In this document: positions 32,758 to 42,966 of the stretch, piece after piece | Layout: the number at the start of each line of letters is the position of its first letter | Position numbering within the stretch: the stretch's first letter is position 1 | Origin: Citricoccus sp. SGAir0253 | GTDB taxonomy: Bacteria; Actinomycetota; Actinomycetes; Actinomycetales; Micrococcaceae | DNA length: 64,000 nt | Direction of reading: 5' to 3' | Assembly (NCBI RefSeq): GCF_005877055.1 | Contig: NZ_CP039424.1 | Location: 186,001 to 250,000 of the forward strand | Notes under the pieces: model-generated | Databases searched by the model: none | Told to the model about the DNA's origin: nothing | What the model saw: the letters and a program-made list of their open reading frames with translations, nothing else | Program-made: the position numbers and the translations under genes

Positions 32758-34428
32758 ATGGAATGGGCGGTGGACCTCGGGCGTCGGGAGTGGACCCGGC
32801 AACTGCTCGATGAGTGCCGCCGGTCCGGCATCGACCTGGCGCCCGTGGACCATCCCGACCCCTCGGACGTGGGGATCGTGCTGGCCGAGGCCTGGTCCGC
32901 CGACCTGGCCCGCGTCCTGGAGGAGGCGGCGGGGCTCCGCTGCCGCGTGATGGTCGTGGGCGGTGCGGACCGCGGGGTGGATCCGTGGCCGGTCCTGGCC
33001 GCGGGGGCGGCCGAGTGCCTGCCGTGGTCCGGGGACCCCGACCCGGTCTGCGCCTGGGTCCGGCGCGAGCGGGAGGTGGCCGGCCTCCTGGGCTCGCCCG
33101 CCGTGCGACGGCACGTGCTCGGGACGAGCCGGGCGCTGACCGAGGCCCTGCGGGACCTCGTGGTGGCCTCCCGGTACGGGCGGGCGCCGATCCTCATCCA
33201 GGGCGAGACCGGGACGGGTAAGGAACTGGCCGCCCGGGTGGCGCACGCGGTGGGGACCGCCCGCGGCTCCCTCGTGGTGGTGGACTGCAGCACGATCACG
33301 CCGACGCTGCTGGGCAGCGAGCTCTTCGGCCACGAGAAGGGCGCCTACACGGGGGCGGTGAGCGTGCGGACCGGGGCGTGCGCCGCGGCCGACGGCGGCA
33401 CCCTGTTCCTCGACGAGATCGGCGAGCTGCCGCCGGAGGTGCAGCCGGACCTGCTGCGGGTGGTCCAGGAGGGCACCTACAAGCGGGTGGGCGGGGACCG
33501 GTGGCTGCACAGCGACTTCCGCCTGGTCTGCGCGACCAACCGGCGACTGGACGTGGAGGTCCGCCAGGGCCGGTTCCGCGCGGACCTGTACCACCGCATC
33601 GCGGCGATCACCGTGACGCTGCCGCCGTTGCGGGACCGGATGGAGGATGCCGTGGCCCTGTTCCTCCGCTTCTGCGCCGAGGCCCTCGGCCGCGAGGACC
33701 AGCGGCTCGACCCCGCCGTCGAGCGGCTGCTGCTGGAGCGGGACTACCCGGGGAACCTGCGGGACCTGCGCCAGCTGGCCCACCGGGTGGCCGCGCGGCA
33801 CGTGGGCCGCGGGCCCATCACCCCCGGCGACCTGCCGCCGGCGGACCGCCCGGTGCCGGGCCTCGTGGTGGGGTGGCCCGGGCTGCCCGACGTCGCCGGG
33901 GATCCCGGGGCCGCGCAGGCCCCGGCCCGCCCGGGGGCCGGTGACGCGGAGCGGGGATCGCCGGCGGCCGGGGTGCCGGGACCGGAGGCGCCCGGGGAGC
34001 TCCAGACCGCTCCGGCAGGACCTCCGGCACCCGGCCTCGCCGCCGGGTGCGTGGACGGCCACGACCCGGTCCGCGCCGCGGTGGCGTGGGCCCTCGACCG
34101 CGGGCTGGGGCTGCAGGACATCAAGGCGCTCGCCGGCACCGTGGCGCTCGACGAGGCGGTCGAGCGCAGCGAGGGCAACCTGCGCACCGCCGCGTCCCTG
34201 CTCGGCGTCTCGGTGCGGGCGGTGCAGCAGCGGCGCGCGGTGCGCTCCGCGGCGGGCGACCGTGCGGCCGCGCCCGGCGGAGACGGCCGGGCACCGGGTG
34301 CCGACGCCGGCCCTCAGGGTTCCGGAGTCGGACCGCCGGCCGGCCCCCGCGCCGGTGCGCTGGCCGGTCCGCTGGCGGACCCGCCCACGAGCCCGCCCGA
34401 CAGCTCGCCGGCCAGTTCCCGCCAGTAG
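32758..34428 (+). CDS. Sigma-54-dependent AAA+ activator (bacterial enhancer-binding protein)
   Basis: A 556-residue activator that would use ATP to open sigma-54 promoters. Residues 1-130 resemble a receiver-like sensor ([27 protein letters not shown]) without a clear phospho-acceptor. The AAA+ domain has Walker A GETGTGKE (149-156), the sigma-54-contacting loop GAYTGA (195-200, Tyr in place of Phe), Walker [13 protein letters not shown], and arginine finger region [12 protein letters not shown] Pro/Ala linker leads to a Fis-type helix ([25 protein letters not shown]). A longer GTG start at 32629 overlaps the promoter. Its 3' end overlaps the opposing operon by 115 bases. The partner RpoN is at 41680. 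Confidence 0.93.
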
Positions 34429-35051
34429 GGATCCCCCGTCGCGGCGGTGAGTTCGTCATAGAACCTCGCCGTCTCCCACTGGACGTCGGCCCGGCTCGCC
34501 GGGGCCCTCAGCGTCGCGATCCCCAGCGACCTCCGGAACAGCGCCCGGATGGGGTCCTCCACGGCGAGGCCGAAGGCGTCCGGCCGGGCCGGCGTCGGGA
34601 ACGGCATGGAGGAGGGCAGGGACCGGGGCAGGCGCAGGGCCGGCAGCACGGCCCGGTACTCGGTGAGGGCGGCCAGGCCGGGCGGGGGACCGGCCGCCGC
34701 GAGGGCGCGGCGGGTGGTGACGTGCGGGGGAAGCAGCCGGCCGCGGTCGATCCGGTGCGCCACGACCTGGAGCACGGTGCCGCCGGACCGCGGGCCGCCG
34801 GGCGGCGACAGGGGGCGGTAGGTCAGCAGCCAGGCCGAGCCCACGCGCCGCGGCGTCGGGACGCGCATCCGGAACAGGTACTCGCGCAACTGGTACAGCC
34901 CCTTGCGGATCTGGTCGTCCTTGTGGGGCTTGATCTCGGCGATGCCCGTCCTCGACACCCGGCCCAGGCGTCCGAGGGCCTCCCGGAAGCGGGTGCTCCA
35001 CTCGGCCTCCAGCGCGGTCTCGGGCGGGTCGTCCCACGGTGGCACGGTCAT
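34314..35051 (-). CDS. Unknown protein, last gene of the sigma-54 operon
   Basis: A 245-residue soluble protein that I do not recognise. It contains VSRTGIAEIKPHKDDQIRKG followed by LYQLREYLFRM; the E-x-K in AEIKP followed by a helix with Gln recalls the core of PD-(D/E)xK nuclease-like folds, but the evidence is weak. A middle segment (LLTYRPLSPPG, TVLQVVAHRID) looks like beta strands. The last 35 residues are Gly/Pro/Ala-rich and are encoded antisense to the end of the activator gene. Its ATG is ten bases after the amidohydrolase stop, so it belongs to the operon. Confidence 0.65.
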   Translation of the reverse strand: MTVPPWDDPPETALEAEWSTRFREALGRLGRVSRTGIAEIKPHKDDQIRKGLYQLREYLFRMRVPTPRRVGSAWLLTYRPLSPPGGPRSGGTVLQVVAHRIDRGRLLPPHVTTRRALAAAGPPPGLAALTEYRAVLPALRLPRSLPSSMPFPTPARPDAFGLAVEDPIRALFRRSLGIATLRAPASRADVQWETARFYDELTAATGDPYWRELAGELSGGLVGGSASGPASAPARGPAGGPTPEP

Positions 35052-35061
35052 GGCTTCTCCT

Positions 35062-41612: not shown

Positions 41613-41640
41613 GCGAAGCGGCCTTCGCGCGGGCCGCGAA
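41613..41640. promoter_or_regulatory. Candidate upstream activator site for the sigma-54 promoter
   Basis: Two overlapping perfect inverted repeats, GCGAAG-CGGC-CTTCGC (41613-41628) and TTCGCG-CGGGC-CGCGAA (41624-41640), lie about 110-140 bases upstream of the expected transcription start, where enhancer-binding proteins usually bind. Confidence 0.5.
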
Positions 41641-41679
41641 CCGGGCTTCGGGGGCGACGGGGGCGACGGCGCCGGGGCG

Positions 41680-42966
41680 TCAGCGCAGCGACGCGCGGTA
41701 CTTGGCGACGGTGCGCCGGGCGACGGGGAAGCCCCGGTGCCCCAGCTCCCCGCTCAGCAGGGCGTCGGTCCGGTGGCCGCCGGCCTCCCGGAGCAGCCGG
41801 GCGAGGGCGGCCCGGGCGGCCACCGAGGTGCCGAAGAGGAGGGCCAGGGGCTCCACGCGGCCCTCCGGCACCCGCATCCACTTGTCCTTGACGGCCCGGC
41901 TCACGGTGGAGGGGTGCATGCCGAGCTCGTGGGCCAGGGCCGTCCGGGTCAGCGGTCGGTGCCGGTCGGCCCCGGCCTCCAGGAATCCCCGCTGGAAGCC
42001 GACCGCGGCGCGGGCGACCCGCTCCAGCACGCTGGCCCGCGCGTCGATCTGCGCCAGCAGCCGGCGGGCCCGGTCCTCGTGGCCGCGCAGCCAGGCGCGC
42101 GCCTCCGCCGAGGCGGCCACGGCGGCGGGGACGGGGGCGATCGCCAGTCCGAACCACGCGCTGGCGGGGACCTCGACGTCGAGCCCGCCGTCCGCGGCCC
42201 GGTACACGAAGACGTCCGCCGGGACCCGGGCCGGCGGCTCGGCCTCGTCCCAGCGGACGGCCGGGCGGAGCCGGCGGCGCACCACCTCGAAGGCCTGGGC
42301 CGCCTGCGCCGGGGTGATCCCCAGCCGACGCGCGGCGCCGGCCGGGTCGTCGTCGGCGACCTCGGGCAGGCAGGAGGCCACGACGTCGGCGGTCCAGGCG
42401 GGCGCCGAGCCCGCGGCGACGAGCGCGGCGGCCTGCTCCGCGAGCAGCGTGGTGACGTCCGGGGCGCCGAGTCCCGGCGGCCCGGCGGCCCGGACGGCGC
42501 GCAGGGCCTCGGCGACCCGGCCCGGCTCCAGGCCGTGGAGCCGGGCGATCTCCCGGACGGGGGCGTCCAGCAGCCCGCGCTCGGTGAGGTGGCCCAGGAC
42601 CACGGTGAGCTCGGCGCCGTGGCCGGGGCGCACCTCGAGGCGCGCCTGGGCCTCCAGGGTGCGGAACTGGTCGGTGCCGGCGTCGGTGTCCTCGTGCAGT
42701 TCCCGACCGTGGGCGAGGTGCCGGCACCGCCGGCACGGTCCGCCGGCAGTGTGCCGGCCGCACCCCGGGCACGGCGCCCCGTCCGCCCGCTCGAGCACGG
42801 GGCTGTCCTGCAGGGCCCGTTCGGTGAGCTCCACGAGGCCGGCCTGCGTGGTGGTCAGCAGGCCGAGGGCCTGGACGAGGCCGGGCACGGCCCGGTGCTC
42901 GGTCCTCAGCGCCTGCTGCAGGGAGGGGCCGGGGGCCGCCGTGGGACCCGGGACGCCGGTGGGCAT
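41680..42966 (-). CDS. rpoN: RNA polymerase sigma-54 factor
   Basis: A 428-residue RpoN. Region I (LVQALGLLTTTQAGLVELTERALQDSPVLE) matches the activator-responsive Gln/Leu region. LTVVLGHLTERGLLD and LRAVRAAGPPGLGAPDVTTLLAEQ match the core-binding domain. RLLAQIDARASVLERVARAAVGFQRGFLE leads to the -12-binding helix-turn-helix (RTALAHELGMHPSTVSRAV), and the protein ends in the RpoN box ARRTVAKYR (416-424) recognising -24. Uniquely, residues 66-81 form CPGC-x8-CRRC, a possible zinc knuckle between regions I and III. Sigma-54 is generally absent from actinobacteria, so horizontal acquisition is likely. It is upstream of, and in line with, the operon it would transcribe. Confidence 0.96.
   Translation of the reverse strand: MPTGVPGPTAAPGPSLQQALRTEHRAVPGLVQALGLLTTTQAGLVELTERALQDSPVLERADGAPCPGCGRHTAGGPCRRCRHLAHGRELHEDTDAGTDQFRTLEAQARLEVRPGHGAELTVVLGHLTERGLLDAPVREIARLHGLEPGRVAEALRAVRAAGPPGLGAPDVTTLLAEQAAALVAAGSAPAWTADVVASCLPEVADDDPAGAARRLGITPAQAAQAFEVVRRRLRPAVRWDEAEPPARVPADVFVYRAADGGLDVEVPASAWFGLAIAPVPAAVAASAEARAWLRGHEDRARRLLAQIDARASVLERVARAAVGFQRGFLEAGADRHRPLTRTALAHELGMHPSTVSRAVKDKWMRVPEGRVEPLALLFGTSVAARAALARLLREAGGHRTDALLSGELGHRGFPVARRTVAKYRASLR

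Follow-up and report, generated by a model that had tools for sequence, protein, structure and literature searches.

The 64,000-bp stretch of DNA analyzed here (the window) corresponds to positions 186001 to 250000 of a 3,323,969-bp contig (C1) of Citricoccus sp. SGAir0253 and contains, at positions 32758 to 42966, a cassette in which a gene for an RpoN-like sigma-54 factor and a gene for an enhancer-binding protein (EBP) bracket seven minus-strand genes, an arrangement that the original prediction had described and that we confirm. The seven genes form a putative operon in the order GZ1 and GZ2 (two glycine-zipper-type proteins), PROT (a putative metallopeptidase), DUFX (a conserved protein), PLP, AMH and REL, the last of which overlaps the end of the EBP gene by about 115 bp. 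The source genome comprises 3,561,338 bp on three contigs, with a completeness of 99.99% and a contamination of 0.19%, and the accessible part of the genome report gives a chromosome of 3.32 Mb and plasmids of 137 and 99 kb, obtained by single-molecule real-time sequencing (PMC6742787). Contamination as the source of the cassette could be ruled out because the window sits on a chromosome-sized contig of a nearly complete genome.

Similar cassettes are found elsewhere in actinobacteria. A scan of contigs for PROT, which used two short peptide patterns and would let cassettes differing in both escape, found nine loci, in Arthrobacter (three), Pseudarthrobacter, Paractinoplanes, Cellulomonas (two), Kribbella and an actinomycetote metagenome-assembled genome (MAG). 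Together with the window and two further genomes (G783 and G982), these make 12 distinct actinobacterial cassettes, with G450 and G050 counted within the nine as the Pseudarthrobacter and MAG loci, respectively. Both rpoN and the EBP gene were present in 11 of the 12; the twelfth (L050) is cut by a contig end on the rpoN side and was left out of the rpoN count. Nine cassettes share the order rpoN, GZ1, GZ2, PROT, DUFX, PLP and AMH, closed by an EBP gene in the opposite orientation, and among these nine REL occurs in the window and five others, is weak in L040 and was not found in L047 and L048. In the MAG cassette (L051), rpoN and the EBP gene adjoin each other and diverge from GZ-PROT, and in the G982 cassette (L092), rpoN separates PROT from the GZ genes, DUFX is followed by an Amidase_2 gene, and PLP, AMH and REL were not found. 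At the level of gene order, the linkage of rpoN, EBP and operon thus survives rearrangement. Outside the phylum, a tblastn search with PROT against 72,556 plasmid records gave five matches, in Ensifer adhaerens, two Rhizobium strains, Paraburkholderia phymatum and, weakly, Paraburkholderia sp. PGU19, and four of these loci were compared (L072 to L075).

The window rpoN-like gene (41680 to 42966, minus strand) encodes 428 amino acids with a divergent region I, a CxxC-x8-CxxC motif, a core-binding domain, a helix-turn-helix (HTH) and an RpoN box, as assigned by Pfam and TIGR models, alignment to solved structures in the PDB and a tree. The match to Sigma54_DBD (PF04552) has an E value of 2.9e-22 and that to Sigma54_CBD (PF04963) one of 4.9e-13, above the cut-off, and TIGR02395 aligns residues 28 to 428 (E 1.3e-39) with a score under the equivalog cut-off of the model. 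The protein had been called a canonical RpoN: the RpoN box ARRTVAKYR and the HTH segment HPSTVSRAV are indeed both there, but the word canonical is too strong because region I (PF00309) gives no match and, when the window protein alone is compared with solved sigma-54, region I contributes only 3 bits. Alone, it aligns to solved sigma-54 from residue 151 onward (E 8e-17), and a profile built from ten cassette RpoNs also aligns region I (E 1.6e-4 for that stretch). Judging from these alignments, the cassette RpoN is a divergent sigma-54 factor, in which ARRTV-KYR is retained in all 10 aligned rows and which would bind core RNA polymerase. After region I, the window RpoN has four zinc-ribbon-like cysteines that are invariant in the ten aligned cassette proteins and probably bind zinc; the motif (CxxC and then C..C) is present in 11/11 cassette RpoNs and in 0/20 others, with a varying spacing in L051 and L092. 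In a maximum-likelihood tree of 31 RpoNs, in which 10 rows have an unusual composition (the window's included) and L051 is a long branch, the 11 cassette RpoNs fall on one side of a branch with a support of 100/99.

The EBP (32758 to 34428, plus strand) is an AAA+ sigma-54 activator with a Sigma54_activat (PF00158) match at E 1.7e-53 and, as predicted, carries a GAYTGA loop, which reads GAFTGA in three relatives. Its residues 1 to 115 read like a receiver domain lacking the phospho-acceptor. An identity with RtcR found no support: RtcR models match residues 124 to 348 at most, and Pfam gave no CARF match. Across the whole genome, Sigma54_DBD has a single match and Sigma54_activat a single strong one. 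Three further Sigma54_activat matches (E 5e-8 to 3e-6) were rejected as EBPs since they are weak and the model also matches all 14 control genomes, archaea included. A search for other EBPs therefore gave no second clear one, and no second RpoN was found.

A -24/-12 promoter-like site, TGGCACGGATTGTGCA (41512 to 41527, minus strand), starts 85 bp upstream of the GZ1 start codon, and 87 to 123 bp upstream of its -24 element lie two CGAAN6TTCG palindromes (41614 to 41627 and 41637 to 41650, strandless), which we propose as the EBP enhancer. When the genome was searched with the pattern TGGCACGN5TGCA, it matched exactly at two places, one being the site upstream of the operon and the other lying inside an open reading frame. 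With at most one mismatch there were 48 matches (2 exact and 46 with one), against 156 for the reversed-pattern control, so that the inexact matches carry no signal and the check for other -24/-12 promoters leaves the operon with the only exact match outside a reading frame. The palindrome pair likewise occurs at two places in the genome, the second being inside an open reading frame with no -24/-12-like site within the 3 kb examined. When the upstream -24/-12 site was scored on a 12-point scale in 14 loci, it reached 11/12 or more in 11 of them and 10/12, 9/12 and 7/12 in L046, L074 and L075 (a locus without an EBP), respectively; in this scoring, the start of the first gene is approximate for L072 and L092. 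L075, with its weak PROT match and no EBP, was left out of the density counts for promoters and palindromes. On both strands of the remaining 13 loci (615,004 positions), 17 sites score at least 11/12, and 11 of these are the upstream ones. Paired GAAN6TTC is found upstream in 12 of the 13 loci, about 35 to 135 bp from the -24 element in those other than the window, and the 5,980 upstream bp contain 19 exact copies of CGAAN6TTCG, versus 4 in 301,522 bp elsewhere. Both elements extend to the plasmid loci, with a promoter of 12/12 and palindromes in Ensifer, 11/12 and palindromes in Rhizobium, and 9/12 and a palindrome pair in Paraburkholderia. As far as pattern matching can tell, the operon is preceded by a near-consensus -24/-12 promoter and two upstream palindromes that both recur in most related cassettes, which is new here. 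In the G982 cassette, a second -24/-12-like site lies between rpoN and the GZ genes (L092:9457, minus strand), and this cassette may therefore have two promoters.

The explanation that best accounts for these results, to which we assign a probability of about 80%, is that the locus is a sigma-54 regulatory cassette that is complete in itself and moves by horizontal transfer. The sequences demonstrate its genes and sites, their linkage and phylogeny, the replacement site and the constraint. The cassette RpoN would associate with the RNA polymerase of the host at the TGGCACG-N5-TGCA promoter in front of GZ1 and keep it closed. The EBP would bind the two palindromes, loop to the polymerase, open the promoter with energy from ATP by way of its GAYTGA loop, and so turn on the operon from GZ1 to REL; both its binding to the palindromes and transcription from the GZ1 promoter are predictions from the arrangement of the sites. 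The cassette would bring its own sigma factor because the host class nearly lacks sigma-54, and homologous cassettes in sigma-54-bearing hosts would carry the EBP alone. Apart from the limits given below for flanking synteny, selection and the plasmid comparison, several observations weigh against this explanation. In addition to the poor region I of the window RpoN, PF00309 stays below threshold in two relatives, L092 and L051. In the EBP, the C-terminal Fis-type HTH (PF02954) falls below the cut-off (E 0.035), and no recognized sensory domain was found with Pfam. The -12 element in the actinobacterial loci is mostly GTGC and not TTGC, and L092 has no palindrome pair. Finally, the PLP gene shifts frame near 36647 to 36662, while in seven relatives its homologue gives a single uninterrupted match; the shift may be either a real break or an assembly error.

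Within the operon, GZ1 (40723 to 41442, minus strand like the whole operon; 239 amino acids) and GZ2 (39803 to 40573; 256 amino acids) have repeated GxxxG, and the C terminus of GZ1, GRWVRRGRNIVIL, is similar to that of GZ2, which also has a Gly-zipper_Omp match below the cut-off (E 2.2e-4). A C-terminal GxWxR motif is present in 16/16 aligned GZ rows from both phyla. PROT (38429 to 39775) has no family match but contains HEVGHQ and a later SEIVAD, that is, HExxH followed by a conserved E and D, a pattern that we take to be that of gluzincins; its structure model (mean predicted local distance difference test [pLDDT] score of 71) gave no fold match, the best Foldseek hit in the PDB having an E value of 0.91. 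DUFX (36904 to 38439) falls outside recognized families and has a model with a mean pLDDT of 48 that is good only in residues 1 to 90, a predicted beta-sandwich. PLP (35835 to 36892) is a PLP-dependent, oxoamine-synthase-like gene assigned through the family match of its homologue, AMH (35062 to 35835) belongs to the Amidohydro_2 family (PF04909, E 2.9e-14), and REL (34314 to 35051) is a small protein with an AEIKP...QLR motif and weak similarity to Tox-REase-9 (PF15650, E 0.0087, below the cut-off), a match seen in four of the eight REL slots scanned. In L092, this slot holds the Amidase_2 gene (E 2e-12). Scans with NCBIfam, PHROGs and PADLOC added only the following: the PLP homologue had an oxoamine-synthase-like match, the peptidoglycan-binding protein of Ensifer gave matches of endolysin type, and the GZ proteins matched weakly, mainly to families that are of tape-measure type or unknown. 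A PG_binding plus GIY-YIG protein lies inside the Ensifer version of the operon (L072:14537-15469).

The glycine-zipper proteins and the changing nuclease/amidase slot suggest antagonism, and we tentatively propose, at somewhat less than even odds, that the product of the operon may be a glycine-zipper system, located at the surface or secreted, that acts against competitors. According to the accessible part of the report on Caulobacter Cdz, a pair of glycine-zipper proteins kills neighboring cells there (PMC5380434). The joint encoding of two glycine-zipper proteins is common to both systems, but as described there the Cdz proteins have only 84 to 86 amino acids, and Cdz includes a type I secretion system as well as an immunity gene (PMC5380434). 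Neither was recognized in the cassette: no transporter domain was found among the operon genes in the Pfam and family-library scans, and an unrecognized immunity gene is possible. It is also quite conceivable, though short of probable, that the operon serves surface or small-molecule metabolism through the oxoamine synthase and the amidohydrolase. The presence of PLP and AMH in 10 of the 12 actinobacterial cassettes (all but L092 and the MAG, whose contig is cut) and the weak toxin likeness of REL would fit this, but an effector system agrees better with the paired glycine-zipper proteins, the metallopeptidase-like gene and the slot filled by REL, PG-binding/GIY-YIG or Amidase_2. Judging solely from the operon content, the cassette would be separate from nitrogen control, as the original prediction held.

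The mobility of the cassette is indicated by its distribution, its phylogeny and its insertion site. With Sigma54_DBD (E up to 1e-3), matches were found in 3 of 59 related genomes (the window's own, G050 and a weak one), in none of the seven other genomes of the genus, and in 10 of 396 genomes of the order, four of them strong (own, G050, G450 and G783) and six weak. In the phylum, 21 of 396 genomes matched, namely, the own genome, 15 strong ones (L009 to L023, all outside the class) and five weak ones. The weak matches (one in relatives, five in the phylum, six in the order) were left out of the counts, and G393 and G337 are represented by L041 and L042, which are longer than L022 and L023. 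The cassette RpoN profile (E up to 1e-8) matched 3 of 394 class genomes (own, G450 and G982). The PROT profile matched 13 of the 394, comprising these three plus ten others at a greater distance (E 2e-42 to 3e-16), five of which were inspected (L093 to L097) and showed no RpoN or EBP within 14 to 20 kb. In those five, the PROT homologues belong to clusters close to regulators that we read as SARP/BTAD or LuxR types, which may point to a wider operon family under other control. Because 3/394 class genomes and 0/7 congeners match, rpoN is not widespread in this clade, which speaks against an ancestral origin. Absence of sigma-54 from Actinobacteria, the background assumed in the original prediction, holds nearly for the class but not for the phylum as a whole, since the 15 strong matches represent ordinary RpoN in other classes; by these profile searches, sigma-54 is rare in the class, yet present in the phylum.

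The RpoN and EBP trees agree in joining the window with Arthrobacter, then with Kribbella plus Paractinoplanes, and then with Cellulomonas. This branching does not follow taxonomy because Kribbella (Propionibacteriales) and Paractinoplanes (Micromonosporales) belong to other orders than Citricoccus and Cellulomonas (both Micrococcales). The PROT tree, with most of its deep forks open and one very long row, neither supports nor contradicts this order. In two congeners, G003 and G004 (L121 and L122), the same flanking genes (a thiamine pyrophosphate enzyme and a TetR-major facilitator superfamily pair) enclose other genes, among which an IclR-type regulator and a CoA-transferase-like gene can be read, and in blastn comparisons with these two genomes DNA similarity ends at 32460 and resumes at 43041, leaving a stretch (32461 to 43040, strandless) without similarity to the matching site. 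The proposal of a transferred cassette thus draws support from two observations: in two of the seven congeners different genes occupy the site, and the RpoN and EBP trees are at odds with taxonomy. That the cassette is instead native to actinobacteria and was lost from nearly all lineages would agree with its GC content, which is like that of the surroundings, and with the lack of an integrase or transposase domain among the eight flanking genes scanned. It would also agree with the limited synteny: the remaining five congeners have the two flanking genes on separate contigs or at a distance of more than 300 kb, and the insertion site is therefore not stable. We nevertheless consider this alternative unlikely in view of the near absence of rpoN from the class and its absence from the congeners, the other genes at the same site, and trees that join Micrococcaceae with Kribbella and Paractinoplanes before Cellulomonas.

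The literature points to a further alternative. In the parts accessible, a 2011 survey by Francke describes Actinobacteria as lacking a sigma-54 system (PMC3162934), and a 2025 survey lists rpoN hits in Citricoccus sp. SGAir0253, Modestobacter marinus, Alloactinosynnema and a misclassified strain (4/173), accepts none of them as bona fide and concludes that Actinomycetota are effectively without a functional RpoN (PMC12316311). The listed Citricoccus RpoN is very probably the gene studied here. On that conclusion, to which the failure of PF00309 on the window RpoN would add, the gene would be a non-functional relic and another sigma factor would transcribe the operon. This is very unlikely, however, since rpoN frames are open in 11 cassettes and both the RpoN box and the promoter are kept. 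In addition, the ratio of nonsynonymous to synonymous substitutions (dN/dS) in four pairs of relatives, which exclude the window and of which three come from one trio, is 0.21 to 0.29 for RpoN and 0.16 to 0.20 for the EBP, which shows purifying selection on the RpoN coding sequence in relatives. The parts of the 2025 survey seen say nothing of a promoter, EBP or operon linked to the gene (PMC12316311), and our evidence argues against the absence of a functional RpoN for the Citricoccus gene only, of the three listed. Even less probable is that RpoN is a general regulator of many genes and merely lies beside the operon: the 48 genome matches with at most one mismatch might suggest it, but the reversed control gives more, only two matches are exact with the second inside a reading frame, and the one RpoN, the one clear EBP and the linkage in 11 cassettes support the single dedicated target operon that had been predicted.

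The proposal of a self-contained cassette gains a further aspect from the plasmid loci. The megaplasmid operons of Ensifer, Rhizobium and Paraburkholderia (L072 to L074) resemble it in having GZ, PROT, DUFX, EBP and the GAAN6TTC pair (3/3), PLP (2/3) and AMH (2/3), but differ in that no RpoN was found within 10 kb with two RpoN profiles and in another effector-like gene in Ensifer; in L075, neither RpoN nor an EBP was found. The Rhizobium hosts have sigma-54, since rpoN is annotated on another plasmid in Rhizobium sp. CCGE531 and CCGE532, and the Ensifer and Paraburkholderia hosts presumably possess it too. The cassette may therefore carry its own sigma factor only where the host lacks one, a rule suggested by 11 versus 3 loci, the three proteobacterial cassettes all coming from plasmid records. 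A wider proposal, to which we give about even odds, is that these proteins form a separate sigma-54 class, distinguished by a zinc-ribbon-like insert behind region I. This class would move exclusively within a mobile cassette, be supplied only in sigma-54-free hosts and drive an undescribed glycine-zipper antagonism system.

The cassette shares with known sigma-54/EBP systems the RpoN box, HTH, core-binding domain, -24/-12 site, GAFTGA-type AAA+ activator and upstream palindromes, and differs from them in its divergent region I, four added cysteines, tie to one operon and occurrence in a class reported to be without sigma-54. In the literature searched, which leaves most subscription journals outside it, we came across neither a description of the cassette nor a report of a zinc ribbon in sigma-54. 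If the explanation is true, a conserved, selected and mobile sigma-54 unit would correct the 2011 and 2025 statements on Actinobacteria, and enhancer-dependent transcription could pass between distant bacteria as a package. It would be a "bring-your-own-sigma" form of regulatory mobility, in which a foreign type of gene regulation could operate in a host without any sigma-54. The result might be a one-promoter sigma-54 regulon free of other sigma-54 background and a potential orthogonal switch for actinobacterial genetics, and the operon family, which occurs on rhizobial megaplasmids too, is unstudied. RpoN relatives are also encoded by five IMG/VR viral contigs (L123 to L127), and no PROT relative was found in the viral contigs searched. 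On the Salipiger abyssi plasmid pPABY4 (L103), rpoN is divergent from an annotated sigma-54 activator, possibly another plasmid-borne sigma-54 unit.

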